Shown: one piece after another, positions 865 through 63,411 of the stretch
Layout of the letters: every line of letters begins with the position of its first letter
Numbering within the stretch: position 1 is the first letter of the stretch
NCBI GenBank assembly: GCA_936450465.1
Contig: OW388297.1
Location: 48,953,630 to 49,017,629 of the forward strand
DNA from: Gibbula magus
Lineage: Eukaryota > Mollusca > Gastropoda > Trochida > Trochidae
Length of the DNA: 64,000 nt
Direction of reading: 5' to 3'
The notes under the pieces: generated by a model
Told to the model about the DNA's origin: nothing
Databases searched by the model: none
The model's input: the letters and a program-made list of their open reading frames with translations, nothing else
Position numbers and translations under genes: made by a program

Positions 865-1002
865 TACTAAACGACGTCCCGTTTAATAACATATTTATGA
901 AACGAGTGGATGGTTTTGGTATTTAACGAGCGAAAGCGAGTTAGATACCAATACCATCCACGAGTTTCATAAATATGTTATTAAACGGGACGGAGTTTAG
1001 TA
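865..1002 (+). repeat. Long hairpin element A (tandem-GA box hairpin)
   Basis: A nearly perfect 138-bp inverted repeat. Apex CGAGCGAAAGCGAG at 927-940 folds as C-G, tandem G-A, GC/GC and a GAAA tetraloop. Interior non-pairing boxes are CGAC 872-875 with GGAG 992-995, and CGAG 903-906 with CGAG 961-964. Spacing is 27 nt (876-902 and 965-991) and 20 nt (907-926 and 941-960) on both arms. All other positions pair almost perfectly. No coding capacity. Confidence 0.9.
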
Positions 1003-2180
1003 TTTTATTTATTACACGCTCTAAATTAATGAAATATGTAATTAAAGTGTACTATTCATTCATGTAGATGTGCGTAGGGATACATCTCTTACCATGGACG
1101 CATAACGCCATCTCACTAAACACCAAAAATAGACCAAGCAAATATCCGTTAATAACAGTTTCAATTTTGAACAATACAATTTCAAAACACTCATTACATT
1201 GTATTTATGTTGAACTATAAGAAGCGCAAATTGGCGAGTAAACAAAAACATCGTATTAATCTCACTAGATCTTATGAATGATGTCAGGTGATTGTGACGT
1301 CATCGGAATGCGACTGTTTTCAAGCGCGATTCAGTTAGGCTAGTTACAGTTGTATGTAGCTGCAGTTGCTTTGCCAAAATAGGCTCTGTAACACCCTGAT
1401 GACAATGACACTGGGGAGTAAAGTTACATACAGTTCTGCAACTAGTTTCATCTAGCGAAATTGTGGGGATCATTGTCCTTGTTGCCGATGAAGTTAACAT
1501 TAGCGGCACAAATTGCTGACAGCACCGCCGAAAATGGAGTTCTGACATTTATAGCAAACGTTAAAATTTTATATCAGCATTGATACTTACCTTGAAGCAT
1601 TTTTATTCATTTATCTTGGTATGTTATCTTTTGTAACAACAGACAGACATGAACATTGCCTCCACAACCTGGAAAACTTACATGTCGACACGAAGCAAAT
1701 TGTTTACATTCTAAACAATTCAAAAACCATTCCTCAAAAGGAGAAGAAAATATCAAAATGTACCTTTAAGGATTACAATGTAGTTGCAATAATACTCAAC
1801 TGACGACTGTCACAGGATACGTGGGTTCAACGTGACGTTTATTCCTTGTGATTTTACATAAACTGAGGCTACGTCAAGTTGCATGACGAAGCAAAATGGC
1901 GGTCAAATCCCGAAAGCCGTAACGAGATAACATATGTGTCAAGGGAACTAACTCTGAATCAACCAAGGGATACTGATTGACGGCAAATTGCGATAGAAGC
2001 GTCCGTACAATATTAATCATAACGACGTTGCGTGAAAAAACATGTCCCAAGAAATCCAGTGCGATCCCAAAGGCCATGTGACTACTGGAAAGTAGTTCCG
2101 ACTGCGATCGCTTTCACGTGCAATGTTTCACAACAGTGTTGAATAACATTTCGATGTTTCACAACAGTAGTATCTTCAAC
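1003..2180. other. Gene-free repeat-rich stretch
   Basis: No supported exon. Contains scattered TGACGTCA-like octamers (about 1285-1300, 1832) and a short duplicated phrase, GTTTCACAACAGT, at about 2123 and 2157. Open frames here have no recognisable domain. Confidence 0.35.
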
Positions 2181-2189
2181 GAGAGTGTA

Positions 2190-2310
2190 ATAAACCATGT
2201 TTATCTCATCGAGTGAGGTAGAAAGGTTATATTTTCCCGAGTGGCGCAGCCATGAGTGAAAATATATAACTTTTCTACCTCATGAGATGAGATAAACATG
2301 GTATTTGTCA
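2190..2310 (+). repeat. Long hairpin element E (GNA-triloop apex)
   Basis: Inverted repeat with apex TGGC-GCA-GCCA (2242-2252), a GNA-type triloop closed by C-G. It is flanked by CGAG 2238-2241 against TGAG 2253-2256; the next boxes are CGAG 2210-2213 against TGAG 2283-2286. The TG forms look like CpG decay of CG. Spacing between boxes is 24 and 26 nt. Confidence 0.8.
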
Positions 2311-2340
2311 AGAATTGACGGATATTCTATTTATTATATA

Positions 2341-2489
2341 GAGAATCTCACCCAAGTGTCTTCTGATATCAAATATATCAACACGAGTTGATTAAAGTTA
2401 CAAATATCCGAGGCTTGCCGAGGATATTTTTACTTTAATCAACGAGTGTTGATATATTTGATATCAGAAGACACGAGGGTGAGATTTTA
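2341..2489 (+). repeat. Long hairpin element F, best copy
   Basis: Palindrome with three box pairs: CAAG 2353-2356 with CGAG 2474-2477, CGAG 2384-2387 with CGAG 2443-2446, and CGAG 2409-2412 with CGAG 2419-2422. Spacing is 27 nt outer to middle on both arms and 21/20 nt middle to inner. The apex is GGC-TT-GCC-like instead of GAAA. Related or decayed copies lie at about 793-833, 3515-3600, 9700-9780, 12747-12868, and 37105-37170 with 37931-37970 (split by a transposon). Confidence 0.85.
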
Positions 2490-2838
2490 TTTATCATTCA
2501 AAATCATTCTTCAACAATTATTAGCAAAATAATGAACATATCTGCAACACAAAACTGCCATGTTGCTACTTCAGCAGTAAACTCAGTGATGTCATAGCAT
2601 TGTGACGTCATCAGCATTGTGGCCTCATAGCATTGTTACGTCATCAACTTTGTGACGTCATACCATTGTCAGCAGTGTTCTCAGTGATGTCAAAGCCTTG
2701 TGATGTCATTAATTGATGATGTAATAGCATTATGACGATTTGATTGTAGCGATATCTACAATGTAGATATCGCTTGTAGATATCGCTTGATCTCACACAA
2801 GCGATATCTACTGTGGATGCCAGTTTTGGATGATAAAT
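2488..2838. repeat. R1 CRE-bearing miniature element, copy 2
   Basis: Opposite orientation to copy 1. It starts with TTTATCATTCAAAATCATTC and ends with AGTTTTGGATGATAAATGA. It holds seven or more TGACGTCA-like octamers at 2585-2735 and GATATC-centred palindromes at 2750-2815. It directly follows hairpin F, as in the other F/R1 pairs, suggesting that hairpin and CRE module form one composite repeat. Confidence 0.7.
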
Positions 2839-2849
2839 GATATTATCCA

Positions 2850-3000
2850 TGTAATTACGTCCGAAAAGGGTCGTTTTCACGTCAAGCGGCCGCAAGGAAC
2901 AGCCCGTCACCACAGTAACACTGTGACGTCATAAGCCAAATGGCCGCGCGAGACCATTTTTTTATGACGTCAAATTATATCAGTCACCGTTCGCAGTGAA
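2850..3000. repeat. Fragment of CRE-module element
   Basis: Matches the interior of the modules at 8331-8545 and 12227-12489: a CACAGTAACA-type phrase, then TGTGACGTCATAA, then TTTTTTATGACGTCA. The termini are not recognisable. Confidence 0.5.
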
Positions 3001-3465
3001 AATATAAGTTATTTTCACTGCAGTCTGATTAAAAAAATTTTCAAAACAGTGCATCTACCGGGATACGAACTCATATCGTTCGGAGATTTCCACGCCAAAC
3101 CGTCTGGAAACAGTCCGTAGACTAGCGTGTTCGAGCGCAATTCAGGTAGCCAATCAAAAGATGCCCAACAAATGCTTTCGATGCGAGAAGTTAGGGGCAG
3201 ATAACTCCAAACAGCTATCCTTTTGTCTGTTCCAAAGCTTTCAAAACAGCGACCGTTTAAAAACTATGATGTGATTGGTCAGCTATTTGACTGGGCTTTG
3301 GCTGCGCTAAACTGGTTCGGAACACACGCCTATACGGGATGTTCTCAGACCTTGTGGCGAGGAATCTACAGAACCTGTTCGTATCCCAGTAGATATATTA
3401 TTTTGCAAATTTTATTCCTCGGAACAAGGTCGATTTTAATCAGACTGTTTTCACTGTAGATTGAT
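2990..3465. repeat. Long inverted-repeat miniature element
   Basis: Outer arms CAGTCTGATTAAAA (about 3021) and TTTTAATCAGACTG (about 3432) are inverted. A second inverted pair is CTACCGGGATACGAAC (about 3055) and GTTCGTATCCCAGTAG (about 3377). The intervening open frame (3223-3459) has no recognisable domain and I do not call it a gene. Confidence 0.6.
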
Positions 3466-3597
3466 AGACAGTTTATTTCACTGATAAATCCCAGTATTTC
3501 ATTGCTCGTCATATAATAAATATCAACACTCATTGATAAAAGTAACCTCTATCAACTCGTGTTGATATATTTGATATCAGAAGACACGAGGGTGAGA

Positions 3598-3628
3598 TTC
3601 TCTATTTATCTTATCTTATCTTATCTTA
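3598..3628 (+). repeat. TTATC microsatellite
   Basis: Short tandem run of TTATC/CTTAT immediately after a decayed hairpin-F copy. Confidence 0.8.
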
Positions 3629-3879
3629 TGTAGCAACGGCAAAAACAATGGTATTATGACGTCACAGACACACTACGGGGGTTCGCGCTGAAACACTCTC
3701 TAAACTGTTCGCGGATGTCAGCGAGCGCTCGTCACTTGTTAGTGAACTTACGCGAACGTTAGGGAAGTCACCGAATAAATCGCATTGCGTTGGCGCATGC
3801 GATTTGGGGGTTTACACTACACGTGTTTTGCATGCGATTTTAATGCGAATATCATAAGTGCGATTGTTTTAGTTCCATA

Positions 3880-4075
3880 TGTTATGTATGTACTGTAGGT
3901 GTGTGTACAATGGATGTATGTACAGGTTTTATGTATAGAATCTGATGTATGTACTGTATGTACAAATGTATGTATGTTGGTACAGATGTATATATGTCCA
4001 CATATATGTATACAAGTGTAAATGTATGTTTGTATGTATTGATGTACATATGTCTGTTGACATACGTTTGTATGA
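3880..4075 (+). repeat. Imperfect TATG/GTAC-rich simple repeat
   Basis: Degenerate run of GTATGTA and TGTAC words. The reverse-strand open frame across it is a repeat artefact. Confidence 0.6.
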
Positions 4076-4170
4076 CTGCTTTGCCTAAACGTGGGGGGAA
4101 ATATCCCTTCAGATGATGAAAATATGATGTCATATAGGGATTTCCAATGCGATTGTGAATGCGATGCGAA

Positions 4171-4378
4171 TAAAATAGAACTGGGCCGTGTTCAAGAAAA
4201 CCTCTCTTGAACGCGATTGCTCAATGTAGCGCTACGGAGCAAAGCGAGCGAACTTTGAGGTTTTGCACCGTGTCGTTCAGGAGAGAATGAGCGCTACTTG
4301 AGCGCTACATTGAGCAATCAATGAGCGATTATAAGCGCTCGCTGTTATGGAACGGAACCCAGGTTCTATTTGTACAGT
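4171..4378. repeat. Palindromic miniature element, copy 1
   Basis: Inverted ends AATAGAACTGGGCCGTGTTC and GAACGGAACCCAGGTTCTAT, with internal AGCGCTACATTGAGCAATC-type inverted motifs. A second copy in the opposite orientation is at about 53806-54036. The apex contains GGAGCAAAGCGAGCG, loosely reminiscent of the hairpin apices. A TCGCA run follows at 4379-4405. Confidence 0.65.
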
Positions 4379-4529
4379 TTCGCATCGCATCGCATCGCAT
4401 CGCAACGCATGAAAAAACGGACGTAGCGTATGTCAACTCATTGAACATAACGAGTTGCGTTCTGATACGATTATTTTTTAAAGCATCGCATTCAAAAAAA
4501 CGGACGTAGTGTATACCCCGCCTAACTGA

Positions 4530-4625
4530 ACGCAAAGCCGGTTGCTAGGCGAACGTGATATGTGCACATGTCCAAGTATAGAAAATATCAACCAGGTTAA
4601 TTTTCACCGTATGGGTAATAGGAAT
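4530..4625. repeat. Fragment of CRE-module element end
   Basis: GTTGCTAGGCGAACGTGATATGTGC and a terminal GTATGGGTAATA match the right end of the modules at 8331-8545 and 12227-12489. Confidence 0.55.
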
Positions 4626-4887
4626 AACAACAACGGATCATTTAAATCATTTTCGAAAATCGTATCATTCTTCGCTTTGCTTGGCAATTAGTTTAGATGA
4701 GACGTAAATGTAAACAAAACACTTTACCAACCAACTTAACAAGGACCAACTAGTTACCGCTATTTATGGTTGAATCGATGTTTAATCTACTCCCATAACG
4801 TAAAGTCCGTTGACATATTAACATATTGAATAAACATATGGATTTCTTTTATCCAGATTAATTACAGAAAAAACGGCAAATTCAAAG

Positions 4888-7448
4888 ATGGCGACGACTT
4901 TTGCGCAACACATGGACCAGGCCACGTTCAACGTGAAAGAGCGAGTCTTGACCTGCACGATCTGCCTGGAAATCTTCAGGACCCCAAAGATTCTTCCCTG
5001 CTTCCACACGTTCTGTCAGGGCTGCTTGTGGAACCACGTGGTGAACACCGTGAAGCTGCAGAAGTTCCCCTGTCCTCTGTGTAGGACTGACATCAGACTC
5101 CCAGAAGGCGGGGTGGACAGTTTCCAATGCAACTTCTACATCATGGAGTTCACCGAGCTCATTGAGAAGGAAGCTCAGCAGACGACGAACAAAAAGGGCG
5201 GGAAATCGGTTCCCGAGGACACGCGCAAGACATGCCAACCTGTGAACAGTACAGTGACGTTTAAAGACCTGCTGTGTCCCAGTCATGCGTATCGAGACGA
5301 ATGGGTATCCTCCTTCTGCAAGAGGTGCAGCGTGCCCATCTGCCTGCAGTGCAAGATGCATGAGCACAGTGGACACGAGTGGGAGGAGTTAGGCGTGGTT
5401 GTCGGCGAGGCTCAGAGGCAGCTCAAGTCGCTTGGGACTCGAGTACTCCAGCACCAGAAACTCCTCGGAGAGCTCAGCGAAGACAGGCGGAAGTACATGG
5501 AGGGCTTCACCACGCAGGTCACTTCCTTCTCCGAGCAGATCCGTTCATGCGCAGATGACATAAAAACCAAAGTTGACGGCAGGTACAAACTGGATTTTGT
5601 ATATGATAGACATACATATTTGTGTAACTGTGAACTATGAAACTGATTATTACCCATTTTACTTATACTTTAAAGTGTATAACAAAAATGAAATTATAAT
5701 TGATAACTGTTAAATTTACTTTCAGATGCGAAGCTCTCCTCTTCCTGCTTGACCATCTCAAGGTCACAGAGGTCAGCAAAGTTGAGTCCCATGAATTACA
5801 AATCAGCAAATGCGCAAAAGGTCTCCGCGAGGTCAAGAAAGGAATGGAACACATGATGAAGGGATCGGGCATCCTTGACCTTCTAGCATCGAAATCTCAT
5901 CTGCTGGAGAAAGCAGACGACATGATCAGAAGTTTCCCAGGGTTCATTGAGAAATGCAAGGTGGTGTATGACCGAAAAGAATCGGACGGGCTTAGCCAGA
6001 AGATCGACGCGGCGATGGGTTACCTGAGCGCGGAGCGGGAAGATACTTCTCTGCCACAGGAGCAGCAATCGGACCCGGAACCGGAAACACCGCCGCCTCG
6101 ACCACCCCAGCAGCACACATCTCCTGTTATAATTCGCCCTCCTCCAGGATTTGCTGCAGGACTACGGGTGGCAAAAAAAGCATCATTCAAGGTCCGCCAA
6201 AACAATGCAGGCATCCGGTTCATCATCCCGGTTCCGAACCTCGGAACGGTGGTCGGGTATGACTCCAGCCCGCGATACGTTGACCTGGTCGACGAGACCG
6301 GAAACAAGCTCCGGAAGTACGAGGCGGTGGCCGGCACTTCCTGCTCCATCCTGCTAGGACAGACAAATCTGGTGCTGTGCACATCCAACCCCCGCCAGCT
6401 GACACAGCGCCGCCTCCCACAGTTCTCCCCCATACCGTACCGCAGCGGGGACCTCCCCGTCACACCCACAGGCATCGCCGTCCGTAACCCCCGGGAACTG
6501 GTCATCTGCGGCAAAGAGAAGGCAGGCGTCGGCACCGGCATCTACATATACTGGTATTGCAAACTAATATCCAGATTTTCTAAAATTTATTCATTTCCTG
6601 TATTGTTGAAAATAATCGAGTTAATAATTACGATGCGAGCACATTTGCAATATCAACATTCGTTTCGTAAATGTCATTTGACAAATTTCTCATATGATCA
6701 AATGTTGATAGATACCTTGCTCAGGATCCTGAAAATAGTATCCACGGGTTAGACCGAATTAAAACACCAACTACGATTAACTCCAAGCATTCGAAATCGT
6801 CATTAACAATGTTATGCCATCAATTTTCTTCTTTGACGTCACAAATGATGTGTTTTTCTCAATTTAACGACTTCGGTAATGGATAAAACAATATCTGTGT
6901 ATCTATATTGTTGGTGACATTCGGCATCTAAATACCACTAAAGTCCACGTACACTACTCATTTAGATTGTTTTATCAAAATAAACATCTCCATTAGTCAG
7001 TGATATTGATACTTAACTATATACATATTCTATTGTTTCCAGTTTGCAAAACAAACGGGCCACGCCGCTTTACGCCAACGGCGACCTTCACATTCTAAAG
7101 GCGCCCGCCAGTGTCGTGGTGACCCAGGACGGAGATGAAGAAATCTTTGTCGTGTCCGACTCTAAGAGGAAAGCCGTCTTCTTCTTCAACAGCCATGGGA
7201 ACCTTCTCCACACATTCCCCACCCAGCGCTGTAGCTTCTGTCCTGAGGGGCTATGTCGAGATATGGACGGCAACATCGTGGTGGCAGACAAGGGAAACAA
7301 CTCCGTCGTGGTTCTTTCCCCACGTGGCATCTTCCGGCAAGAGTTGACACGCGGCGTCGATCCAAGGGCGATAACTTTTGATGGCTCCGGCAGACTTTGG
7401 CTCGGCGAGGCGGAGGGGACGATCAGCGTCTTCGATTACATATCCTAA
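4888..7448 (+). CDS. TRIM-type RING/B-box/coiled-coil protein with NHL-like C-terminus
   Basis: Three exons: 4888-5582, 5726-6553 and 7043-7448 (stop 7446-7448), joined through a GTACAA donor, a GTATTG donor and two AG acceptors; phases close, giving 642 aa. The start ATG sits in aaagATGGCG context. Residues 23-65 are a C3HC4 RING (C23, C26, C38, H40, C43, C46, C62, C65), the signature of an E3 ubiquitin ligase. Residues 130-163 are a B-box type 2 (C130, H133, C144, C147, C152, C155, then His). About 165-330 is a charged helical coiled-coil region interrupted by intron 1. After a Pro/Glu-rich linker (PEPETPPPRPP) the C-terminus has beta-propeller-like repeats with phrases such as DMDGNIVVADKGNNSVVVLS, typical of NHL repeats. 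By family knowledge it is a cytosolic ubiquitin ligase; substrate and any antiviral role are unknown. Codon use is GC-rich against AT-rich flanks, as expected for a real gene. Confidence 0.9.
5583..5725 (+). other. Intron 1 of the TRIM gene
   Basis: 143 nt, GT at 5583-5584 and TTTCAG ending at 5725. It splits an AGA codon (phase 2). The reading frame runs a short way past the donor but the exon 2 frame resumes exactly at 5726. Confidence 0.85.
6554..7042 (+). other. Intron 2 of the TRIM gene
   Basis: 489 nt, GTATTG donor and TTTCCAG acceptor, phase 2. It contains stops in all frames and no other signal. Confidence 0.8.
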
Positions 7449-8110
7449 AACATGATGATCCCTTTTTGAATTTCTTAGTGGCAAACTGAACTTAACGATT
7501 TAAGCTTGGTTTACTTTTACTAAGAACTCTTTTTGAAATAGTTCCTTTGTGAATAATAGACTGAACATTGTTTAAAGTCGAATTATTGGCCTTTTACAAA
7601 GATTTACAAACATGTCTTAGTGGGAACTAATTTTTGAAGATTGGTTGATATCTAAATATGACTTTGTGAAATTATGCCGTTTAAAAACAGAATCGTATTA
7701 ATAGGCCATTGTTATTGAAAGTTTACTTGTACATGTAGCAAAGATTACGAAACTCATTTTGAAACATATGTGAATTGAAATAATAAAACAAAATCATACG
7801 CATTAGGTATTTTCCAATAGTGAATGTTGGTCGAATTTAAAAAACAGCCAAATATTTTATGTCCAAAACTTAACTAACTGAAAAATGTCATTATTAAATT
7901 TAATCCCCAACTCAACAAGTGCAATAAGAAAATCAATATTTCTATTTGATACATATATTTCAATAAACAGTCATTTCTTTTTGTATGATAACTTTTCCAA
8001 TTCATATGAACCATGATATACATTCTACATGCATTATTCAAAGTTTTTAACAAATTTCATATATTTTCTATATGTAAATATATTTTTACATGAATAAAGA
8101 TATTGAGAAT
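7449..8110 (+). other. Probable 3' untranslated region of the TRIM gene
   Basis: AT-rich, no exon. AATAAA polyadenylation hexamers occur near 7780 and at 8093-8098; the second precedes the first repeat element and is the better candidate for the transcript end. Confidence 0.5.
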
Positions 8111-8180
8111 GAGCTTTATTGTCATTTTTGGAATCGATTGTTCCTTTAAGATATTAGGTTCCCGGTGTCGTATATAGAGA

Positions 8181-8318
8181 TTATTACCCGAGGAAGTGTG
8201 TCATATGACTTTTACGAAACGAGTGTGAATGTTTGTATTGCCCGAGCGAGAGCGAGGGTTATACACAAATTCGCACGAGTTTCGTAAATGTCATATGACA
8301 CACTTTCGAGTGTAATAA
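8181..8318 (+). repeat. Long hairpin element B
   Basis: Apex CGAGC-GAGA-GCGAG at 8243-8256, a GNRA tetraloop. Box pairs: CGAG 8189-8192 with 8307-8310; CGAG 8220-8223 with 8276-8279; CGAG 8243-8246 with 8253-8256. Spacing is 27 nt on both arms and then 19 nt on both arms. Arm sequence is unrelated to elements A, C, D and F. Confidence 0.9.
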
Positions 8319-8330
8319 TTTCTTTATTGC

Positions 8331-8545
8331 CCGTTCTATTCCATGTGATTCGCGTAAAAATAGTAAGAAAGCGGCCCAGCTCTCTTGCGACGGCAAGCAA
8401 CAGTGACGTCACGAACAATCGTTTTATGACGTCACTGACGACAAAATACGGGAAGCCGCGCTGAAACAATCGTTGCTAGGCAAACGTGATATGTGCATAA
8501 TGTGAATAATATTAACTCGGTTATTTCCAACCATATGGGTAATAA
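8331..8545. repeat. CRE-module miniature element next to hairpin B
   Basis: Termini TTATTGCCCG and CATATGGGTAATAA are inverted. The interior has CAGTGACGTCAC and TTTTATGACGTCAC, two full CRE palindromes about 20 nt apart, then GTTGCTAGGCAAACGTGATATGTGC. Homologous to 12227-12489. Confidence 0.7.
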
Positions 8546-8555
8546 AAACAAAGAT

Positions 8556-8710
8556 TACATTACGATTGAGTGTTGAATATCGAAAATATTTCAACGAGAT
8601 ATTTTTTAATGTTGTGATTTATTCACGAGCGAAAGCGAGTGAATAAATCACAATATTTAAAAATATTGAGTTGGAATATTTTCGATATTCAACACTCACG
8701 AGTTATGTAA
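8556..8710 (+). repeat. Long hairpin element C
   Basis: Apex CGAGC-GAAA-GCGAG at 8626-8639. Box pairs: CGAT 8563-8566 with CGAG 8699-8702; CGAG 8595-8598 with TGAG 8667-8670; CGAG with CGAG at the apex. Spacing is 28 nt on both arms and 27 nt on both arms, so both intervals are long here. It begins just after the end of the CRE module at 8545. Confidence 0.88.
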
Positions 8711-9855
8711 TCTTTTTATAACATATGAAACTTTATATTCATTTGAGACAAGCATCAGACTATGCGCGACATTACCGCGTAATAATACTTATACTGGGTA
8801 ATTAATCTAGGTGGAGTCAAGCCGTAAAACAGTAACAAATGTAGTCCCGATTTCCGTTTCGCTCTCGCTCGCATCTACATAAAATATCATATTAACTCAA
8901 TCATTTTCACAATGTTTGTCGTCATCATTGTCCTGAATCAAGATATCAAGAAGCACTTTAATAGTTAACACTGACGTTGTTGACCTCGACGAATATCGTC
9001 AAATGTTCCTTGACCGGCTGTTTTCATACAACCGTCCTTGCTGAACGTTTCTATATGCAAGTTTCCTATTTTGAACTTCATATGTGTATATCTAGACGTT
9101 GATTATATCAAACTATGATCATGCATGTCGATTCTAAAAGCAATCATTTATAAACTTTGATTCGTGTTGACAAAAACACGACCGTTGTAAACAAAAGGGA
9201 GATAACTCTTCCTGGACTAAATTGAAGCAAAATATTTATATTGTGATTAATCTAATTATAAAATATATGAGATCGGAACCCGAATTCTCTATTTTTAATT
9301 TTTGCAATGATGCAAGTTTATTAATAGTCAAAAATACGTTCAGGAAAAAGATATGATGAACTGGAAAATTGAAGTGGCGAGTGGGTTCGGCTGTACTCGA
9401 TCAGCTGGTGGCGAAAGTAGTACGGCATTATGACGTCACTATCGTTGAATAACTTGTTTTGGTTACACAACACTCGTTGAATAACTTTCAACTAGTTACA
9501 CAACACTTGTTTCAAATAACTAAAATAATCTCATAACGATATTCAGAACACGTATGTAATAAAAGCCAATACATGAGTAGTTTTTTTGCCGACCGAAGTA
9601 TTTCAACAGTTTAATGGTTTACAATAACAACAAATCGGCAAAATTAAGGGCCCAGTACATTTTTTTGTAGACGAAATCGAGGGGGATTTTGTTATATAGA
9701 TAATATCATTCAAGTTTCTACTTATATAAAATACATCAACACAGGTTGATAAAAGTTACAAATATCCGAGGCTTGCATATCACGCACCACTCTCCATCAT
9801 ATTATAAATTTTGCATTTCGTAAATTTTCTGTGTAAGCGTAGCAGCACTTTGAAG
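8711..9855. other. Gene-free stretch with hairpin relics
   Basis: A reverse-orientation apex relic (TTTCGCTCTCGCTCGC, about 8858-8873) and a partial hairpin-F copy (about 9700-9780, containing ATATCCGAGGCTTGC) are visible. CRE-like TGACGTCA at about 9432. No exon supported. Confidence 0.45.
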
Positions 9856-9859
9856 TTCA

Positions 9860-10301: not shown

Positions 10302-10302
10302 T

Positions 10303-10605: not shown

Positions 10606-10697
10606 CTAATATGAGTCTCTTGCCGGTAACAATTCAAAGCAAAACTTTAATTTACGTTGTTGCGAAACGCATTATATTTGAGGCTATTACTTTTATC

Positions 10698-11182: not shown

Positions 11183-12060
<878 letters not shown>

Positions 12061-12080
12061 AAATTGAGTGAGATTTAGAG

Positions 12081-12220
12081 AATAACCAACGAGGTACGAG
12101 TGATTACGGGAAATATCCATGAGTCTAAATAATGTTCAGCCACGAGCTTTAGCGAGTGGCTCTGAACATTATTTAGACGAGTGGATATTTCCCGTAATCA
12201 CTCGTACCGAGTTGGTTATT
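12081..12220 (+). repeat. Long hairpin element D
   Basis: Box pairs: CGAG 12090-12093 with 12208-12211; TGAG 12120-12123 with CGAG 12178-12181; CGAG 12143-12146 with 12153-12156. The apex loop is TTTA inside GC/GC. Spacing is 26/26 nt then 19/21 nt. Arm sequence is unrelated to the other elements. Confidence 0.88.
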
Positions 12221-12226
12221 CTATAT

Positions 12227-12489
12227 ATTACCCATTATGCAATTAAATTGACCAAATTACGCTTTGTTATAATTACATTTTCATGTTGGGCGGCTGCTGT
12301 GAAGGACCCGTCGCCACAGTAACATTGTGACGTCATAAGATAATTCGTCGCGTCAGACAATTGTTTTATGACGTCATAGTCATTCTTTCTCCGGGAAACC
12401 GACCAATCAACGTTGAGAATCACTTGAAAGCACATGTGCAAATATCACAAAAATAATCACCTGTGTCTTCTCACCCGTATGGGTAATAT
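12227..12489. repeat. CRE-module miniature element next to hairpin D
   Basis: Inverted termini TATATTACCCAT and GTATGGGTAATATA. Interior TTGTGACGTCATAA and TTTTATGACGTCATAG. Same layout as 8331-8545. Confidence 0.75.
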
Positions 12490-12740
12490 ATTCAAGATAT
12501 CGCTACAATCAAATCGTCACAATCCTACTACATCATCAGTTAATGGCAACGCAAGACTGCTGACAATGTTATGACGTCACAGAGTTGATAACGTAACAAT
12601 GTTATGATGCCACAATGCTGATGACGTCACAATGCTATGACATCACTGAGCTCACTGCTGAAGTAGTCAAATGGCAGTTTTGTGTTGCAGATATGTTCAT
12701 TATATTGCCATAATTATTGAAGAATGACTTTAAATGATAC
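12486..12740. repeat. R1 CRE-bearing miniature element, copy 4
   Basis: Begins with AAGATATCGCTACAATCAAATCG and ends near GACTTTAAATGATACATAAAA. TGACGTCA-like octamers at 12571-12650. Followed directly by hairpin F copy G. Confidence 0.65.
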
Positions 12741-12746
12741 ATAAAA

Positions 12747-12868
12747 TCTCACCCTCGTGTCTTCTGATATTAAATATATCAACACTCGTTGATTAAAGAA
12801 AAAATAAATTTGTAATTTTAATCAACTCGTGTTGATATATTTGATATCAGAAAACACTTGGTGAGATT
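12747..12868 (+). repeat. Hairpin F copy (element G) with degenerate apex
   Basis: Arms match element F (TCACCCTCGTGTCTTCTGAT left, TGATATCAGAAAACACTTGG right) but the inner arm and apex are replaced by an A/T-rich segment, so only the outer stem is intact. Confidence 0.75.
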
Positions 12869-12971
12869 CTCTAATATACACATAATTTACAAAAAGACAA
12901 TGACACCTGTCAAATTTGAGTAAGATACGAATATTAAGAAATCGCATAAATGACATTTGTTTTAGAGACGA

Positions 12972-13006: not shown

Positions 13007-13009
13007 CAC

Positions 13010-15870: not shown

Positions 15871-15878
15871 ACAATTAA

Positions 15879-16367
15879 AGGTACATCCATTGTGTTGTTG
15901 GGGTCACATATTGCAAACGTTATAAATGGTGATACTTTATCGAGAAGTACCGACTGTTACCGAAAATTACCATTTTGGTGATAGTAGACTTAGCATATTG
16001 ACGATATGAAGATAAAAGAAGTGATTTCTGAACGAAAACCGGACAATGCACAGCGTGTGGCGCGCGTCAATGAGTCAAACGTAATTTTGAAATCTTATTT
16101 ATAACAGACAAAAAGACAAATTTGAGTTGATAATGTTTAATAGGTAATATAACCACTGTGCATATAAATGGGACATGCAGTTTCGGTTTCTGCACATGCA
16201 CAATGATGTTACTCAATTTTAATTGGAAACTAGTAACTATGATATATTTGGCGAGTGGGGATAAATATGCAAGCTGAGTGAATTTATTTGTATTGTAGAC
16301 AGCACATGTGGTGAGTTGGAACGTATCAAAGCCAAATAAAAATTTATGAAACACAATGGATGTACCT
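15879..16367. repeat. TTAA-flanked miniature element (AGGTACATCC family), copy 1
   Basis: Left TTAA (15875-15878) then AGGTACATCCATTGTG; right CACAATGGATGTACCT then TTGA (one change from TTAA). Homologous over its length to 39217-39692. No coding capacity. TTAA target duplication is the piggyBac-superfamily preference. Confidence 0.75.
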
Positions 16368-16369
16368 TT

Positions 16370-18140
16370 GAGGAAGGAAGTATATTGCGTGAGGAAAAGC
16401 TGAAGGAGTAATTCTATATTCTATTCTATATTTCGGTTTAGCTAGTAATGTATCGGAACCTTCAACAACTGTATGAAACCTTATCTTAATAATTTCACTT
16501 CAAGTAACATATGCAAATTTAATTTCATATTGTCATTAATAAGAGTTCCTTGCATAACTATATCGTTACATTTTGAGTTATTTTTGACATTACAAAGGTC
16601 GGCGTAAGACCTACTCGTGTAACATCTAACAGGTGACGTAAGCTTGCATACACATGTATTACCTGAGATAAATTTTACCCACTCATTCTCAATGAAAGTC
16701 AGTGCACAAGTAAATATATCCATTTTACAAAATTCGAAAGTCTGCATAAGAAGTCCTGATCATAACATGTCAATATATCTTATTTTGAAGAATTTTCTGT
16801 AACAAATTAGAGCCTAATTAACTATTAACATAGGATTTGAATGTTATATACATGTATATTTGTCTTAATGTCTAGATCAAGTTTTATTTGTTAGAAATTT
16901 ATAGACTGGCATTTTAGTTGTTTTAAAACTTTTTATTTATTTTTTTTATGATTTATTTTCTCTCCTTAGAATTACCCTTTGTATCCTACGCTTTGTATAA
17001 ATAATGCAATATCACATGTTTACAGTCAATTATCACAAAGACCTCGATCGGATGTATTATTCCAAAAAGGTATCACCGAAAGGATTCGGACTTGTTCTAA
17101 CCCTAAGGACAAAATGTAACGGGAGTTCCGAACAGCAACCAACGCACAACACAACACAACACCGTGTGTTATCATATCAATGTAAAGCTCTCAAACAAAT
17201 ATGTCAATTTACCGTGTGGCGATTATTCTTTTAATTTTTAGATTTTAATCTATGGAGACCAACTCTATTACATTGCCTTCGCTAACTCGACATCAGCAAC
17301 ATTTTGGAAAAGTAGGTCAGTGGCTATGTTTGATTCGTTTCATCGGCATATACACCGACCAAGTGACCGGAGGACATGCACCGTTCTGAAGCCAGGCTTA
17401 AAGTGTATCGGCGTACAAACAGAAAGACGTCATCATCCCTTAAACTAGCTTAAATTAACATGTCATTTAAATGAGAAAACTTTAAAAAAAATAACTTCCA
17501 AACATGAATTGACATTTTCTTAGCGTGTTAGGCATTGTTTTAAAGAACCAGTATTATTCTTAAATAAATCACTTCGTCAAAGTATCTAGTTGTCAAATGC
17601 AAAGTCAAAGAAAATATAGTTATTAAATGTCGCATGGATAGCATTTGTACGCCATTATACGCCACCTTCGCCTGTCATTTCAAACCGAAGCATTCGGATT
17701 ACGCCTTAGGCGTACTCCGGTTTCACCATTTTCGGCGGCGTATGCCGTGTGTTGCGCCGGGTTCCGAATCAATCATAACCAGTAAAACTGTTAACCAAAC
17801 GGAACGTAGTTTCCGATTCTGGAATGCCAAATAATGTACTTTACTTATAGAAAAGCGCTTTGTTACTTGTGATATTGATTTGAATTGCAGATTACAAGTT
17901 TATCATTGATTCTAATGAAACATTGAAGAACAATTCTATCTATATGACAAATATTGATAATCAAAATCCACATTTGTTTGTGCCAATTATTTCGGATTAC
18001 CCACAATGTCACGTGGTTCATAATTTGCTACAGCTTTGGTCATTGGTCAATAGAATTTCAAAGATACTAAGACAACGCATATCATTGGCTGAAGGTTCTA
18101 TTTGAAAATTCCAACAGTATATAGGGAGAAATTCACCTTA
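16370..18140. other. Gene-free AT-rich stretch
   Basis: No supported exon or structured RNA. Small open frames (16481, 17004, 17634) lack domains. Confidence 0.3.
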
Positions 18141-18145
18141 TTACT

Positions 18146-18172
18146 GCTTGGGGCGTATGCGCCCCAAGCAAT
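18146..18172. repeat. Short GC-rich perfect hairpin
   Basis: GCTTGGGGCG and CGCCCCAAGC around a TATG loop, just left of hairpin H. Confidence 0.7.
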
Positions 18173-18212
18173 AACCGATTTTGATAAATTTGTCGCCTTT
18201 TCCTTCGCTTTG

Positions 18213-18358
18213 TATGACAGATATAACACTCTCCCTCGGTTTTCGTTGAAAATGTAAACATTCGGGGTCGGGAGAACCCTTTGGCCTTAGGCCCGCGGGT
18301 TCTCCCTCTCCCTCATGTTTACATTTCAACTAAAACCTCAGGAGAGTGTTATATCCTT
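18213..18358 (-). repeat. Long hairpin element H (reverse orientation, decayed)
   Basis: Arms ATATAACACTCTCC and GGAGAGTGTTATAT. Read on the minus strand the box pairs are TGAG with CGAG and TGAG with CGAA, 21-22 nt apart, then a GC-rich inner stem around GGCC-TAA-GGCC. Same logic as elements A-F but more mutated. Confidence 0.65.
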
Positions 18359-18419
18359 TTCATAAAAAGAAATTGTGAAACGGGTATATGATTTGTATAG
18401 CCCTCCTGCTCCTTTCAAC

Positions 18420-18545
18420 TCTCACTTCCTCCTTACTCACACTATGTGTGTCAGTCTCTTTCTGTCTCTGTCTATTTCTGTCTCAGTCTATCTGTCTGTC
18501 TGTCTATCTGTCTATCTGTCTATCTGTCTCACTGTCTTTGTCTCA
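18420..18545 (+). repeat. TCTG/TCTA microsatellite
   Basis: Run of TCTGTCTATCTG words. The open frame over it is an artefact. Confidence 0.85.
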
Positions 18546-18997
18546 CGTGAACTAGCCACTTCATATGTTGAAATATATTGATACGTCAATTGAAAATGAA
18601 AACTTAATGATATATGATATATCTAATATAATAATATATGTCCCGTTTATTTCTTTCAGAATCCATTGGAAATGTACATGTAACCGAAGCTCTCAATATC
18701 ATGGACAAAATCGCATATATTGATTTAAATAAAAAGATGAAATATTTTCACAACATAGCTGTATACGGAAATAACGATTAGACAATCATAAAAAGATGAA
18801 TTTATGCACATTTATGAAGAGAAAAGCAAGATAACCTGCATACCAACTTCTTTATTGTGAAAACATTTTGGAGTTTATACATATTCCTTCATCAGGTGGA
18901 TTGTGTATACTGACAATACACTATTTGGTGTTAACAATTCAAATATAGACAAATTATTCAAATCACTACTTCCCTATATTTATGCAATTTTATCAAA

Positions 18998-19543
18998 ATG
19001 AATGGTCCACTAAAGCCATTACATCCAAAATCCCTGCCGGAGTGTATGAAATACCACCTCTACATCAGTTGTGCTGAGGAGGACATCAATGATGTATCTA
19101 GGTGTATTAAAAGATTGTTGCCTTATGGATGCAAATGCGTTGAGTTCTTCAGGGATGGTGCCCCATGTCTGCCCATCTATAGACAGATAGAAAGGTTTCT
19201 TTGTCAGAGTCTCTGGATTGGTTTATATATAACTGATGACTTTTTTAAATCATCCGGGACACTTTTTCAAATTGACGTATTTGTTCACCAAGTCATAGAC
19301 AAGGACAAGCAAAAACGTATTGTTCTACTTGTCAACGACGAATCTGTTACCAAGAAGATACCGGTCATTCTGCAGCCTTTTAAAATAGTGTGTATGTTCA
19401 GAAGAGGTTGGGAGGAAGAGTTGTCTAACATCATCAAGAAGAGACGTAAGTTGACTTTTAACGCTTTTTGTAAAACTGGTGAATACAACTGGTTGGGCAG
19501 ACTATACATGTATACGCCCAGACTTAACCTAGGTCGATCATAA
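18998..19543 (+). CDS. TIR-domain protein
   Basis: The single open frame gives 181 aa if unspliced. Residues 18-150 look like a TIR domain: YHLYISCAEED is box 1 (beta-A), FFRDGAPCLPI carries the box 2/BB-loop RD-P pattern, followed by FLCQSLWIGLYITDDFFKS and RIVLLVNDES. TIR domains mediate signalling assembly in innate immunity, or cleave NAD+ when they have a catalytic Glu. The matching helix here reads SSGTLFQID, with Asp where enzymes usually have Glu, so I infer a scaffold rather than an NADase. A strong donor (GTAAGT) at 19446 would cut the exon at 19445 in phase 1; a candidate next exon at 19915-19962 continues in frame (KPLTHEEITNFCGNP). Whether the mature protein stops at 19543 or continues is not decidable here. 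No signal peptide or membrane segment is seen. Confidence 0.7.
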   Translation: MNGPLKPLHPKSLPECMKYHLYISCAEEDINDVSRCIKRLLPYGCKCVEFFRDGAPCLPIYRQIERFLCQSLWIGLYITDDFFKSSGTLFQIDVFVHQVIDKDKQKRIVLLVNDESVTKKIPVILQPFKIVCMFRRGWEEELSNIIKKRRKLTFNAFCKTGEYNWLGRLYMYTPRLNLGRS

Positions 19544-19914
19544 ACTGCTAATAGGATCGAGGTTGTTCAGTGTGTTCATCCGCACAAACAGCTTCGATGG
19601 TAATATACTTTTCACATTGGTATTTCAGTTGTTCAAGTCCATGTACGTAGAACATTGCTGGGACCCCGGTTTTCATGTCATCATATTGTCTTCCACGGAT
19701 ATGTTCTTTCAGTTTTGGCAAGTGACATCATGCAAACCACATAAGGATGATAAAGGAAGCTCTTTAATTGAACCCACATCAGCCCGTGCTGATTCTTCTA
19801 AAATTGTTTTTGTCTGTACGAGACCTTAAAACTGAAGGAGGTTTTGCATTGGTTTCATGTATGTTGTATTATCATCTTTACCCATGACCATGCGAATTTT
19901 AACTTCTTTTTCAG

Positions 19915-19962
19915 CAAAACCCCTGACACATGAAGAGATAACAAACTTTTGTGGGAATCCAG
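19915..19962 (+). CDS. Candidate second exon of the TIR gene
   Basis: Preceded by CTTCTTTTTCAG and followed by GTAAAA. With the phase-1 donor at 19445 it reads on without a stop and leaves phase 1. Weak, because it is short and unrecognised. Confidence 0.35.
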
Positions 19963-20054
19963 GTAAAAAAGATTACTTAGTTTTGTACACTTCATTCTGA
20001 ACAGCGTGAACACTTATTTTATATCCTCTAAATACTTCGTTTATTTAATTTACT

Positions 20055-20131
<77 letters not shown>

Positions 20132-20407
20132 AAACTACTACTACTACACTACTACTACTACTACTACTACTAATAATAATAATAATAATAATGCTACTAC
20201 TAATGCTACTGCTTCTTCTACTGCTGCTGCTACTACTACTACTGCTACTGCTACTACCGCTGCAGCAATAACTACTTCGACGACCACCACTACTACTACT
20301 ACTACTACTCCTACTACTGCTACTAGTACCACTGCTACTACTACTCCAACTACTACTACTTCTACTACTCCTACTTCTACTACTACTGCTACTACTACTA
20401 CTACTAG

Positions 20408-20441
<34 letters not shown>

Positions 20442-21025
20442 GCTGCTACTATTACTACTTAGACTACTACTATTACTACTGTTACTACTTCTACAACTTC
20501 TATTTCAACCACTATTACAACTACTACTGCTATAACCACTTATACTACTGCTGCTACTACTACTAGAACTACTACTATTACTTCGACTACTACTGCTGCT
20601 GTTGTGGCTACTGCTACTACTGCTGCATCTATTACTACTTCGGCTACTACTACTGCTACTACTACTACTACAACTTCTACTGCTATTGCTTCTGCTACTG
20701 CTACTGCTACTGCTACTGTCGGTATTACTACTTCGACTACTACTACTAATACTACTACTTGTAATGTTACTGTTACTACTTCTACAACTTCTCCTACTTC
20801 AACTACTGCTACTACAACTATTATTACTACTGCTGCTGCTGTTTCTGCTACAACTTCTACTGCCACTGCTACTGCTACTACTACTACTACTATTATTATT
20901 ACGACTACTACTGCTGCTGCTGTGGCTACTGCTACTACTGCTGCATCTATTACTACTTCGGCTACTACTACCAATACAACTTCTACTGTTATTGCTTCTG
21001 CTTCTGCTACTGCTACTACTGCTGT
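20055..21025. repeat. Compound CTA/CTG trinucleotide microsatellite
   Basis: Nearly 1 kb of CTA, CTG, CTT and ACT triplets. Long Val/Ala, Leu and Thr/Ala open frames on both strands are artefacts of the triplet repeat. Confidence 0.97.
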
Positions 21026-21034
21026 GTACATATC

Positions 21035-21076
21035 AATAATATTAACTCGGTTATTTTCAACCATATGGGTAATAAA
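21035..21076. repeat. Fragment of CRE-module element end
   Basis: ATATTAACTCGGTTATTTTC then CCATATGGGTAATAAA, identical in layout to the right end at 8505-8547. It is fused directly to the microsatellite. Confidence 0.7.
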
Positions 21077-21079
21077 GCA

Positions 21080-21840
21080 GTATATTTCTACTATATTGCT
21101 AAAACCACTTCTACTACAAGTGATATCATCGCGTCAAATTCCTTATCCCTGGAATGGATGATGAGCGGTTCGAGGGCGCATCTAAAAGTACTTACATGCA
21201 AAACATCATTGTAATATTTTGCCCATCGATAAAACCGACGTGTGATTGACACATCCAGGTTTATGCAAACTATGCGCAAGTTGTACATCACAATTACATA
21301 ATATTGTGTCAGCATTTGCCTATTACATGATATCAGTTCTTCATTTGATCAGATCACGTCGACTTAACTAAGTTGGTCCGTGGTAAAGTCCCTCCACAAG
21401 CGTACACAGTGGGTGGTCCAGTCTCCGAAGACGTCATACCTCAGCATAAGCACCGAGACGCGAAGGTATAACCAATTGTAACATATTGGAGTTTGTGCGC
21501 AAAATTATAAATGTATATTGCATAATATAGAATGTAACATAGTATAACAAGGTGCTTTACCCACCATTTTCATCATGTTGATTGCTGGCGTTAGATTCGT
21601 CAGTTTCTAGCAAACGTTAAAAGCGCATGTACCAACAAGAATATGTGTCCACTGTCGATATGTTGTGCGTTTGTACATTGTGTATTGTGACCCTCGCGTT
21701 TTGATTAATCAGTTTCATTTATCAATTAATTGTGTTTTCAGTTACTTGTTCTGGCTTTTTAAAGGTCCTGTCTACAATGTACTTAAACTAATTAATTGCT
21801 TATAATGTTTTTATATTATAAATATTATTTTATGTATATT
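21080..21840. other. Gene-free stretch upstream of the microprotein
   Basis: No exon recognised. If the gene at 21849 starts here, its promoter and 5' UTR should lie in this interval; I see no clear TATA or initiator. Confidence 0.3.
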
Positions 21841-21848
21841 TACAGATT

Positions 21849-22346
21849 ATGGCAAAACGAGGACGATTTCAGGTAAAATATTAATATTGTTTGTCGATAG
21901 TGTGTGCACTCGTTCTTTTAAGAACGCTTCAATTTGATATATAATATAGACATATTTCGGCCTTTGTTACTTACATAATGCATCACTTGTAACCCTTATT
22001 AACAAGTATGGTATTTTAATAACACCAGTAAAACATGTTGTAGTATGCATTTGTGCCATTTCTTCAGGTTTCAAAGTTCGAGATTCCGATGGAACACAAC
22101 CCTCGTCGGAAGCAAGAAGCCCAGTCTGCGTCTTCAACCAGGTCTACAGCTTCAACCAGGTCTACAGCTTCAACCAGGTCTACAGCTTCAACCAGATCTA
22201 CAGCTTCAAGCTTCTCTGCAGCTTCGTTCAGTGAAGATTCTGGAATTCCGGACGACCTATCTCAAACGGAGTCCGATGACGATACCCAGACCTTAATGAG
22301 AAGCTATAAAGACATACTTGAACTCCGGTCATCGGGATCTGAGTGA
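21849..22346 (+). CDS. Candidate microprotein with RFxV motif, Ser/Thr repeat and acidic tail
   Basis: Two exons: 21849-21872 (ATG to CAG, then GTAAAA donor) and 22068-22346 (after TTCTTCAG, phase 0), giving 100 aa. It begins MAKRGRFQVSKFEIPME. RFQV fits the RFx[V/I] peptide that docks on the OSR1/SPAK C-terminal domain; that use is inference. Next come four copies of an 18-nt unit coding STASTR (22143-22212), then SEDSGIPDDLSQTESDDD, where DSG followed by Ser resembles a beta-TrCP phosphodegron, and the end LRSSGSE. The small exon is also open in another phase, which would join it to the TIR gene but end early; the present frame gives the more protein-like product. No homologue recognised. 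Confidence 0.45.
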
Positions 22347-22374
22347 GATATAAACGTGTTGAAAAGAGGTTTAG

Positions 22375-22805
22375 TAGTAGCTGACGTTGCATATTTTCAA
22401 ACCTGAATCCCGTATAGAAGTGTGCAAAACTTAATTGAAGTGAAATAATGTCACATGTTGAAAAGACAAACATAGTTGACGTTATAGGATTGCCTAACTG
22501 AATCCTACATTGTATATAGAAGTGCACAACTTCATTGCAGTGAAATAGGACCACATGTTAAAAGAGAAGTAGCTGACGTTGCATATTTTCAATGATTTGC
22601 AATTCTAAATCATATATAGAAGTGCAAAACTTCATTGAAGTCAAATAGGACCTTTTTGAAACGACAGAAATAGTTGACGTTGCATAATTGCAAAAATGAC
22701 TCCTATATAGAAATGTATAAAACGTCATTGAAGTTAAAAAGTACCACATTTTGAAAAGACAAGAGCAGTGGACGTAGCATGTTTTTATCTGAACCTGTGT
22801 ATGCA
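22375..22805. repeat. Tandem repeat of about 90-96 bp
   Basis: About four to five diverged units, each with TGACGTTGCATA, TATAGAAGTG, CAAAACTTCATTGAAG and GTACCACATNTTGAAAAGA-type phrases. It lies just 3' of the microprotein stop and may be part of its 3' UTR. Confidence 0.75.
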
Positions 22806-22809
22806 AAAC

Positions 22810-23340
22810 CTAGAACTTAGAATGTGCCGTGTTGTGCCTCTACTTCCTAATCGATTTACCAATATGTTTGTGATATTGTCCTTCTGGTTGGTCTGAAATA
22901 ACATACCGCATATAAGTCCTTGCATTTCGATGAAATTCATGTACTAGTCACTGTGAATTGGCAGTTCTTCATCGGTTTCATGGCAACACATTTAACGTAA
23001 TCTGGTTTAGTTATTTGTAGTCAGGTTGAAAATGGTAGTGAAACTTTTCGGTATGAATGTGGAATAATATTTTTAATATGTTACTCTAGAAAGGCCTACA
23101 CAGAGTACACTCAAAGCCGACATCGCGTAGAATCATACATACATGTTAGTATAGAGGGGAATCGTATTAGAAGGGCTTTTCGTGTGTTTAGGACTTATTC
23201 GGGAGTACATTAACATGTCGGCTTACATGGAGCTTCGTGTTAGACCTAGTAACCAGTTGTATGAAGGGTTCCCCAACAACGGTGTTAACTGTGTACCTCA
23301 AATGTGTTCCATGTATATTTGAGACCTGTTATTGTTTAAA
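22810..23340. other. Gene-free stretch
   Basis: No exon, repeat or RNA gene recognised. Confidence 0.3.
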
Positions 23341-23352
23341 TATATAGAGAAT

Positions 23353-23492
23353 ACTAAACGACGTCCCGTTTAATAACATATTTAAGAAACGAGTGAGTGG
23401 TATGTATTTAACGAGCGAAAGCGAGTTAAATACACTATCATACCATCTCACGAGTTTCATAAATATGTTATTAAACGGAAACGAGTTTAGTA
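23353..23492 (+). repeat. Long hairpin element I (relative of A)
   Basis: Apex CGAGCGAAAGCGAG at 23412-23425. Boxes CGAC 23359-23362 with CGAG 23482-23485, and CGAG 23390-23393 with CGAG 23451-23454; spacing 27 nt on both arms, then 18/25 nt. The outer arms match element A, but the inner arm differs from A on both sides while still pairing. Confidence 0.9.

Positions 23493-29161: not shown

Positions 29162-63411
<34,250 letters not shown>

Follow-up and report, generated by a model that had tools for sequence, protein, structure and literature searches.

A 64,000-nt stretch of the genome of the gastropod Gibbula magus (contig OW388297.1, positions 48,953,630 to 49,017,629, here called the window) contains a series of long hairpins built to a common plan, and raises the question of what kind of element they belong to. 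An earlier note had described six of them, A (865-1002), F (2341-2489), B (8181-8318), C (8556-8710), D (12081-12220), and I (23353-23492), in which CGAG boxes face one another as tandem G·A mismatches (GA/GA boxes) at regular distances, and had proposed a folded single strand, either a DNA transposition intermediate or RNA. Our analysis shows that the hairpins are the 5′ ends of Crypton transposons, which encode a tyrosine recombinase (YR), and of non-coding Crypton derivatives. All genome counts given here come from the genome of this one species (1.47 Gb).

The recombinase gene and the ends of the elements

Two 2,486-bp copies (L032 and L045) are 99.84% identical, and translation of L032 yields a YR frame on the strand opposite the one that carries the GA boxes (the GA strand). 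Its domain matches are PF12012 (DUF3504; 2.1e-13) and PF00589 (Phage_integrase; 3.2e-8), with a QRICH1 match (6.5e-7) just below the cut-off for that family. The frame of L032 holds a stop; that of L048, a copy of L045, is open over 572 amino acids, and some young YR copies have open frames of at least 500 amino acids. An alignment of 15 YRs retains R261, K294, H390, R393, and H416 in all 15 and Y425 in 14, columns that we take to be the catalytic residues; the exception is L083, a J-type element with Phe at the presumed catalytic Tyr (NNF vs NNY). A predicted structure (mean predicted local distance difference test score [pLDDT] 71, predicted template modeling score [pTM] 0.47) has QRICH1 and Cre as its nearest matches, with a further match to an integron integrase (2a3v, 1.5e-7), and a sequence search of the PDB returned QRICH1 as the sole match. 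Judged by its sequence, the enzyme is a recombinase of the CryptonA kind. Among the 120 best of 292 proteins, the named relatives come from molluscs, cnidarians, and hemichordates, apart from one filed under a bacterial metagenome-assembled genome; genera with a close YR include Octopus, Littorina, Mytilus, Porites, and Ptychodera. No relative was confirmed in viral or bacterial/archaeal genome contigs.

A genome search for this gene gave at least 154 matches (150 of 840 candidates scored), and 41 YR loci were examined: the 30 best and 11 hand-picked ones, mostly diverged and long-framed. Clustering at 80% identity gives 16 families. A GA/GA hairpin was evident immediately at 33 of the 41 loci. 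These 33 were measured, and every one has the hairpin past the 3′ end of the gene, on the side of the YR C terminus, with the GA strand opposite the coding strand. The distance past the frame end is 319-688 bp in 30 loci and 893-1,454 bp in three with shortened frames. Two further loci (L066 and L068) have a 98% match to a boxed hairpin within a head-to-head pair, and at L049 the boxed hairpin lies ~2 kb out (as seen in L029), so that the total is 36 of 41 loci and 15 of 16 families, L085 being the family exception. L066 and L068 (C12:24175492-24178206) are YR-bearing copies lying head to head, their facing hairpins forming a larger palindrome.

Flanks compared in nine, then 27, copies of A place the hairpin at the very 5′ end of the element and GAGAGTGTAATA at its 3′ end. 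These copies are mostly ~1.33 kb long (range 1,189 to 2,486 bp), and beyond their limits they share only short AT-rich target bases, the flanks being otherwise unrelated. Neither terminal inverted repeats of the kind found in miniature inverted-repeat transposable elements (MITEs) nor a long target duplication occurs in the 27 copies or in three clear empty sites. In the first (L028), A has inserted into a satellite array of ~147-bp tandem units, which offers a set of clean empty sites; in the second (L037) the target is a dispersed repeat; and in the third the window copy of A interrupts hairpin J in its left arm. L028 and L037 show a 5-bp overlap, ATAAA. Hairpin A (138-bp query) occurs at 100% identity in at least 29 places, the window copy included, and at 99% in 11 (40 scored of 1,951 first-look candidates); the 29 identical copies indicate that A has been active recently.

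Target bases were tallied for 55 insertions, comprising 27 A copies and 28 YR copies from 14 families (L056 and L064, where an end was not found, and L047 and L048, which repeat L032 and L045, are omitted). Before the element stand T at -1 (55), A at -2 (51), A at -4 (47), and T at -5 (37); after it stand A at +1 (50) and T at +9 (46), and some of the near bases may be the element's own. The T at +9 is a base of the target and reveals a preference at a distance, as expected of a recombinase dimer.

Just inside the hairpin is a short arm, the foot (for example TTATTACACTCTC or TTATTACnnnnnn), and the other end of the element is its inverted repeat (GAGAGTGTAATAA and nnnnnnGTAATAA, respectively), with letters that vary by family. 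Compared with shuffled sequence, the repeat is significant at p ≤ 0.05 in 25 of the 33 loci, which represent 10 of 15 families. An independent check compared copies within 10 families that have at least two, 7 and 9 among them: agreement is 39-50 of 50 bases up to the far end and 3-14 of 30 past it; because the agreement stops there, the matched arm is the end of the element. Distal arm positions pair with their own partner at a mean of 5.57 of 7, vs 2.71 with swapped partners, and none of 20,000 permutations reaches the former value, in a test that is partly circular, because the far ends were located through their match to the foot, and that uses one fixed register, undercounting families 8 and 9, which are out of register.

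It is scarcely conceivable that these are Helitrons, Helitron2 elements (Helentrons), HUH rolling-circle elements of another kind, or cut-and-paste MITEs. An AT target without long duplication would suit such an origin, and the sections of Bao and Jurka (2013; PMC3627910) available to us report, for Helitron2 and not for Crypton, a hairpin at the 5′ end, inverted repeats that are asymmetric and show compensatory changes, and no canonical terminal repeats. Those sections also describe a RepHel protein, repeats of 8-15 bp, and a 3′ hairpin, and do not describe GA boxes. Here, however, coding copies carry a Crypton-type YR, which is linked to the hairpin in 15 families; the repeat joins the very 3′ end to the foot behind the hairpin, outside the 5′ hairpin itself; and the MITE kind of terminal repeat is absent. 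A Helitron or Helentron had first been suggested by short 3′ ends, a candidate dropped on discovery of the YR.

G·A boxes, their spacing, and the marked strand

The six hairpins described earlier are present and fold where the note had placed them, and remeasurement of A, F, B, C, D, and I upheld its box distances. On the left arm, the step from outer to middle box is 31 nt in A, F, B, and I, 30 in D, and 32 in C; that from middle to inner box is 24 nt in A, 25 in F, 23 in B, 31 in C, 23 in D, and 22 in I; and in every case the two inner boxes lie 10 nt apart on either side of the apex (a two-pair stem and a four-base loop). The boxes themselves are less uniform than had been claimed: the outer box of F is AA opposite GA, not GA/GA, and those of A (CGAC/GGAG), C (CGAT/CGAG), and I (CGAC opposite a shifted CGAG) depart from CGAG/CGAG. 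The kinship of A and I stands, but to call the arms five unrelated sequences was too strong, because A and B are also relatives (68.6% over 172 bp). Four boxed hairpins had been overlooked, J (2194-2302, plus strand), G (12757-12857, minus), M (18220-18355, minus), and K (24093-24229, minus); the boxes of A, J, F, B, C, D, and I lie on the plus strand and those of G, K, and M on the minus strand.

Strong stems in the window hold 25 2 × 2 mismatch loops, nine of them GA/GA and the others of 16 types seen once each, including TC/TC, which is GA/GA on the opposite strand. In a wider scan, from which >90%-AT repeats were excluded, 10 of the 20 long hairpins in the window have at least one GA/GA box. 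When loci L019 to L087 are counted with the window, 79 of 105 long hairpins have a GA/GA box and 198 of 233 2 × 2 loops are GA/GA, figures inflated by the many copies of A. At a 75% identity cut-off, a selection of 28 hairpins divides into 12 groups. Outer and middle GA/GA boxes stand in the standard plan in 12 of 21 hairpins, with a left-arm step of 31 nt in ten and of 30 and 32 nt in the other two. The middle box is absent from L078 and L079, which retain the outer-to-inner distance (55 and 56), the outer box is absent from L063 and L081, and L069, L083, M, K, and L036 deviate from the plan. The box spacing is a real ruler, with exceptions.

The mismatched state is also the prevalent one genome-wide, as checked for one apex sequence. 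The mismatched apex CGAGCGAAAGCGAG has 4,672 exact copies (2,281 forward and 2,391 reverse), vs 14 of the fully paired version of the same apex, CGAGCGAAAGCTCG, and a reversed-pattern control of CGAGCGAAAGCGAG has 70. These counts speak strongly against the possibility, raised in the earlier note, that such boxes are no commoner than other states, and the presence of the hairpins in 15 YR families, like the 12 groups just given, excludes another, that all copies derive from a single recent ancestor. At C1:7067036-7082843 (G000), four apex motifs are spaced 5,264-5,265 bp apart, probably a tandem array with one hairpin per unit.

The palindromes might instead have arisen in passing, through replication or template switching, with hairpin-templated repair maintaining their pairing but missing G·A tandems. 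In L081 and L082 the outer box has become perfectly paired (CTCG opposite CGAG in L082), which looks as if the other arm had been used for repair, and the change in L082 is what such a process would produce. This origin is nevertheless very improbable: the outer-to-middle step is 30-32 nt in 12 of 12 standard-plan hairpins, the boxes lie on one strand and at one end with a matching far arm, and mismatched apices outnumber paired ones as given above.

A further asymmetry marks the same strand. In 23 boxed hairpins, aligned with no mismatch type favoured, the GA strand has 39 G·T vs 7 A·C mismatches (binomial p 1.8e-6, a guide only, because related hairpins are not independent); by hairpin, 17 have an excess of G·T, one of A·C, and five are tied. 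The 23 were hand-chosen from 28, the window copies at 853 and 2336 and those of L029, L031, and L039 being omitted as near-duplicates or fragments. Unboxed inverted repeats serving as controls (26, including the same repeat twice in L032/L047 and in L066/L068, the latter being the head-to-head Crypton pair) have 96 G·T and 111 A·C. The G·T bias and the GA boxes indicate that folding of the GA strand has been kept.

The proposal of a folded single strand, as transposition intermediate or RNA, is supported by the position at transposon ends, the marked strand, and the foot complementary to the far end; DNA is favored over RNA, since the strand that folds runs antisense to the gene for the recombinase. 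GNRA, CTTG, and TTTA apices and sheared G·A tandems are stable, and together with tolerated G·T pairs they would also suit a hairpin that acts as RNA, for instance within an antisense transcript with a protective or regulatory role for the element, its position at the end being secondary. We regard this as improbable: in all 33 loci measured the hairpin folds from the strand antisense to the YR gene, the foot matches a far-end arm 1-2.5 kb off that an RNA hairpin would not need, and an Rfam scan of the window found no family at gathering score.

A predicted folded site at the joined ends

For one copy of each family, the final 16 bases of the element were joined to the initial 190, and the fold of this junction was predicted with DNA energies. 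A two-stem hairpin is predicted in all 14 families tried, with an outer stem of mostly 11-13 bp (8 in family 7) and an inner stem of 11-12 bp, followed by the first box and then a long top; the spacer between the stems is 2 vs 3 nt in seven families and 1 vs 2 in four. L069, L081, and L082 have a closed first box, and in L053 and L079 this box lies inside a 3 × 3 loop. Predicted stability is greater for the GA strand than for its complement in 13 of the 14 families, the exception being L069. Natural head-to-tail junctions occur in L054, in L069, and between B and C in the window (8537); that of L054, GGTTGAGTAATAAAT joined to AGAGAATACT, folds with a 2-nt GA bulge.

This anatomy would make the ends of an animal Crypton transposon a single-strand recombination site like the attC sites of integrons, a reading that we consider likely. 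The element runs from 5′-AGAGAAT through the boxed long hairpin, the foot arm, and a body, whose YR gene is encoded on the opposite strand, to the complementary 3′ arm. Joined on one strand, its ends are predicted to form an outer stem, a small spacer or bulge, and an inner stem usually ending at the first GA/GA box, above which a long, freely varying upper stem would carry more boxes ~31 and 23-26 nt on. The YR would read the folded GA strand as double-stranded half-sites (outer arm, crossover region, and inner arm), as an integrase does with attC, taking the first GA/GA box as an end mark; the boxes may make contacts with it.

A canonical YR site has arms of 9-13 bp and a center of 6-8 bp, according to the part of Bouvier (2009; PMC2727003) that was available. 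The outer arm, the spacer with its neighbors, and the inner stem fit such a site only with the hairpin folded out, and it would have to fold out because an ordinary duplex puts ~150 bp between the outer arms. Since the GA/GA boxes stabilise one strand only, with CT/CT on the other, they would mark strand and orientation; only the GA strand folds well, so that orientation would be fixed. Strand transfer would take place at an AT-rich site and the joint be finished by replication, as in integrons, and non-coding derivatives, which keep the hairpin and the far arm, would be moved in trans. We lean, with some reserve, toward the view that both integration and excision of animal Cryptons proceed via a folded single-stranded DNA site. 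It would be a separately arisen eukaryotic counterpart of the integron cassette site, with tandem G·A boxes marking the strand and non-coding copies serving as cassettes moved in trans. If so, the domesticated proteins QRICH1, ZMYM, and KIAA1958 would descend from enzymes that read folded single-stranded DNA.

The same half-sites could be presented on both strands by a cruciform extruded from double-stranded DNA, such as a supercoiled circle, with no single-stranded intermediate. Long palindromes are able to extrude, and a cruciform would have the same anatomy and the same foot/end repeat. It would use both strands, however, the other one carrying CT/CT, whereas the GA/GA boxes and the G·T bias are found on one strand only, and we hold it to be a possible but rather unlikely alternative to the single-strand site.

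Like these ends, attC sites (PMC2727003, as far as its available text goes) consist of a folded strand with outer and inner stems, an unpaired spacer, and a variable top, show little sequence conservation, rely on stem irregularities for strand choice, and are recombined by a YR. Stems like the R and L stems of attC are predicted around the spacer in 14 families, 11 of them open on both sides. The layout is cassette-like as well: one end has just the outer arm, and the partner of this arm lies with the hairpin at the other end, past the 3′ end of the gene, the folding strand lying opposite the gene. The attC of an integron cassette sits 3′ of its gene. Unlike attC, the sites described here have an animal host, a Crypton-type YR rather than IntI, and no GTT/AAC core, the arms being GTAATAA/TTATTAC and variants. 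An attI platform was not seen either, in an analysis that included no search aimed at one. The layout of the element resembles an integron cassette, but the Crypton end is no attC, from which it differs in core letters, integrase, and strand marks. In the attP of the CTX phage, a long single-stranded DNA hairpin rebuilds a YR site, and the phage uses host Xer enzymes. In the accessible text of PMC9345347, strand-biased circularizing integrative elements (SEs) of Vibrio have YRs and form a circle from one specific strand, which makes these bacterial elements a precedent for one-strand circles.

Crypton boundaries are hard to characterize, and terminal repeats had not been found in animal Cryptons, according to the sections of Kojima and Jurka (2011; PMC3212892) available to us. 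Like CryptonA as described in those sections, the present elements have a DUF3504 YR, no terminal inverted repeat, no clear target duplication, and non-coding derivatives that outnumber coding ones; unlike it, they have a long boxed hairpin at one end and an inverted repeat of its foot at the other. Fungal Cryptons have short direct repeats of 4-6 bp at their ends; here an ATAAA overlap is seen in two of the three clear empty sites and not in the third. Kojima (2018) linked the human Eulor5/6 repeats to Crypton ends, and the word hairpin is absent from the part of that paper available. Among the open-licence papers listed, nothing joins Cryptons with terminal hairpins or attC, which is weak evidence of absence. 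The transposon group is a known one, its end structure is one for which no report was found, and the mechanism to which this points is known from bacteria; if this is borne out, tyrosine recombinases that recognize single-strand sites would be found in animals as well as in bacteria and phages. What the elements offer is precise Crypton ends, a preferred type of target site, an att site defined by structure, and young copies that can serve as a test set; with such ends and the young open-frame copies, the mechanism becomes directly testable. Crypton derivatives that sequence similarity misses could be found by their structure, with paired arms, fixed-spacing GA boxes, and a foot/end repeat as the search rule.

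Several observations weigh against a folded single-strand site at Crypton ends. Five of the 41 YR loci have no whole hairpin (half of one in L074, only the foot in L058, none in L052, L084, and L085), and the YR families share a common ancestry and hence are not independent tests. The three-box plan is not followed by nine of 21 hairpins, and the outer box is fully paired in L081 and L082. The foot/end repeat falls just short of p 0.05 in families 6 (0.065) and 11 (0.080), does not rise above shuffles in families 7 (9 bases) and 9 (12 bases, one mismatch), with p values of 0.24-0.50 for the two, and was looked for in family 14 (J) and not found; in the window it reaches p ≤ 0.05 for A, D, and F and falls short for B, C, I, K, and M. 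To these may be added the partial circularity of the arm test and a spacer that is a one-sided bulge in three of the 14 joined-end folds. Strand marking in attC is by extrahelical single bases, and here it would be by symmetric tandem G·A 2 × 2 loops. The third clear empty site, that of the window copy of A, has no 5-bp overlap, and a fourth (L038) is too diverged to read. Finally, circles, single strands, and binding by the YR are steps that we infer from sequence.

Elements in the window and other observations

Three Crypton-type elements are nested or abutting at 829-2836, with A in the left arm of the J hairpin and F directly after the J foot. Element A (859-2192, 1,334 bp, plus strand; 27 copies with both ends) is a non-coding derivative that begins with AGAGAATACT, followed by the hairpin and body, and ends with GAGAGTGTAATA; it lies within the left arm of element J, and the empty site is seen in L039 and L083. 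Its hairpin (862-1005, plus strand) has three boxes with first bases at 873/993, 904/962, and 928/938. The foot, the inner partner of the outer arm, lies at 1009-1021 and is an inverted repeat, with one mismatch (p 0.020 vs shuffles), of the lone outer arm at 2181-2192, both on the plus strand. The left part of the J hairpin arm, split off by A, is at 829-858 (plus strand; its YR-bearing sibling is L083), and the J core, with two boxes, at 2194-2302 (plus strand); in L083 the J arm adjoins the YR gene. Element F (2340-2836, plus strand) is non-coding, with its hairpin at 2341-2489, foot TTATCATTCAAAA, and 3′ end TTTTGGATGATAA (p 0.010); its relatives L081, L086, and L082 have a YR.

Element B (8176-8544, ~370 bp, plus strand) has its hairpin at 8181-8318 and 3′ end CCATATGGGTAATA, with a weak match between its own foot and end (p 0.41). 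Directly behind this 3′ end, and forming the head-to-tail junction, stands hairpin C (8550-8715, plus strand) with three boxes; its far end was not found (p 0.22), and L069 is a YR-linked relative. Element D (12077-12488, ~410 bp, plus strand; hairpin 12081-12220) has foot ATATATTACCCAT and 3′ end ATGGGTAATATAT, the last bases lying just beyond (foot/end p 0.005). Fragments of 3′ ends with CCRTATGGGTAATA had been considered a second element type, which was dropped; the foot/end repeat accounts for them in D. Tail to tail with D is element G (12487-12872, minus strand), a copy of the F type whose hairpin boxes read CTCG on the plus strand.

Hairpin I (23346-23502, plus strand) is of the A type, with a far-end match at p 0.46. 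Hairpin K (24093-24234), with boxes on the minus strand, starts with TTTAGAGGTTATAAC (foot/end p 0.055). The irregular hairpin M (18208-18369), also with boxes on the minus strand, is tied to Cryptons by its boxes alone; no foot/end repeat was found for it (p 0.43). Remnants comprise a deleted F-type hairpin fragment (3511-3610, minus strand), the 3′ end of a B/D-type element with an interrupted body (4607-4620, plus strand), and the 3′ end of a 5′-truncated B-type element in microsatellite-like sequence (21061-21074, plus strand).

The 16-mer ACGAGCGAAAGCGAGT was also found in 18 stretches of viral contigs; no long hairpin accompanies it in any of them, the highest count of outward pairs being 14 of 30. 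Seven of these contigs (L002, L003, L004, L005, L007, L011, and L017) have a recurring TGTGACCACnTG and then ACGAGCGAAAGCGAGT; the Rfam family Phage_DGR is found ~500 bp on in L005 and L007, two of the four viral loci scanned. In the window, long open frames at 4888-7448 may belong to a RING/B-box gene of the TRIM type. Long inverted repeats without GA boxes at 34217-34404 and 61439-61612 share the letters GCATAACTCTTGCCAGT and belong to some other element family, and two facing tRNA-like stretches at 52764-52868 (GGGTTCGAATCCCGC) are perhaps an inverted pair of short interspersed elements.

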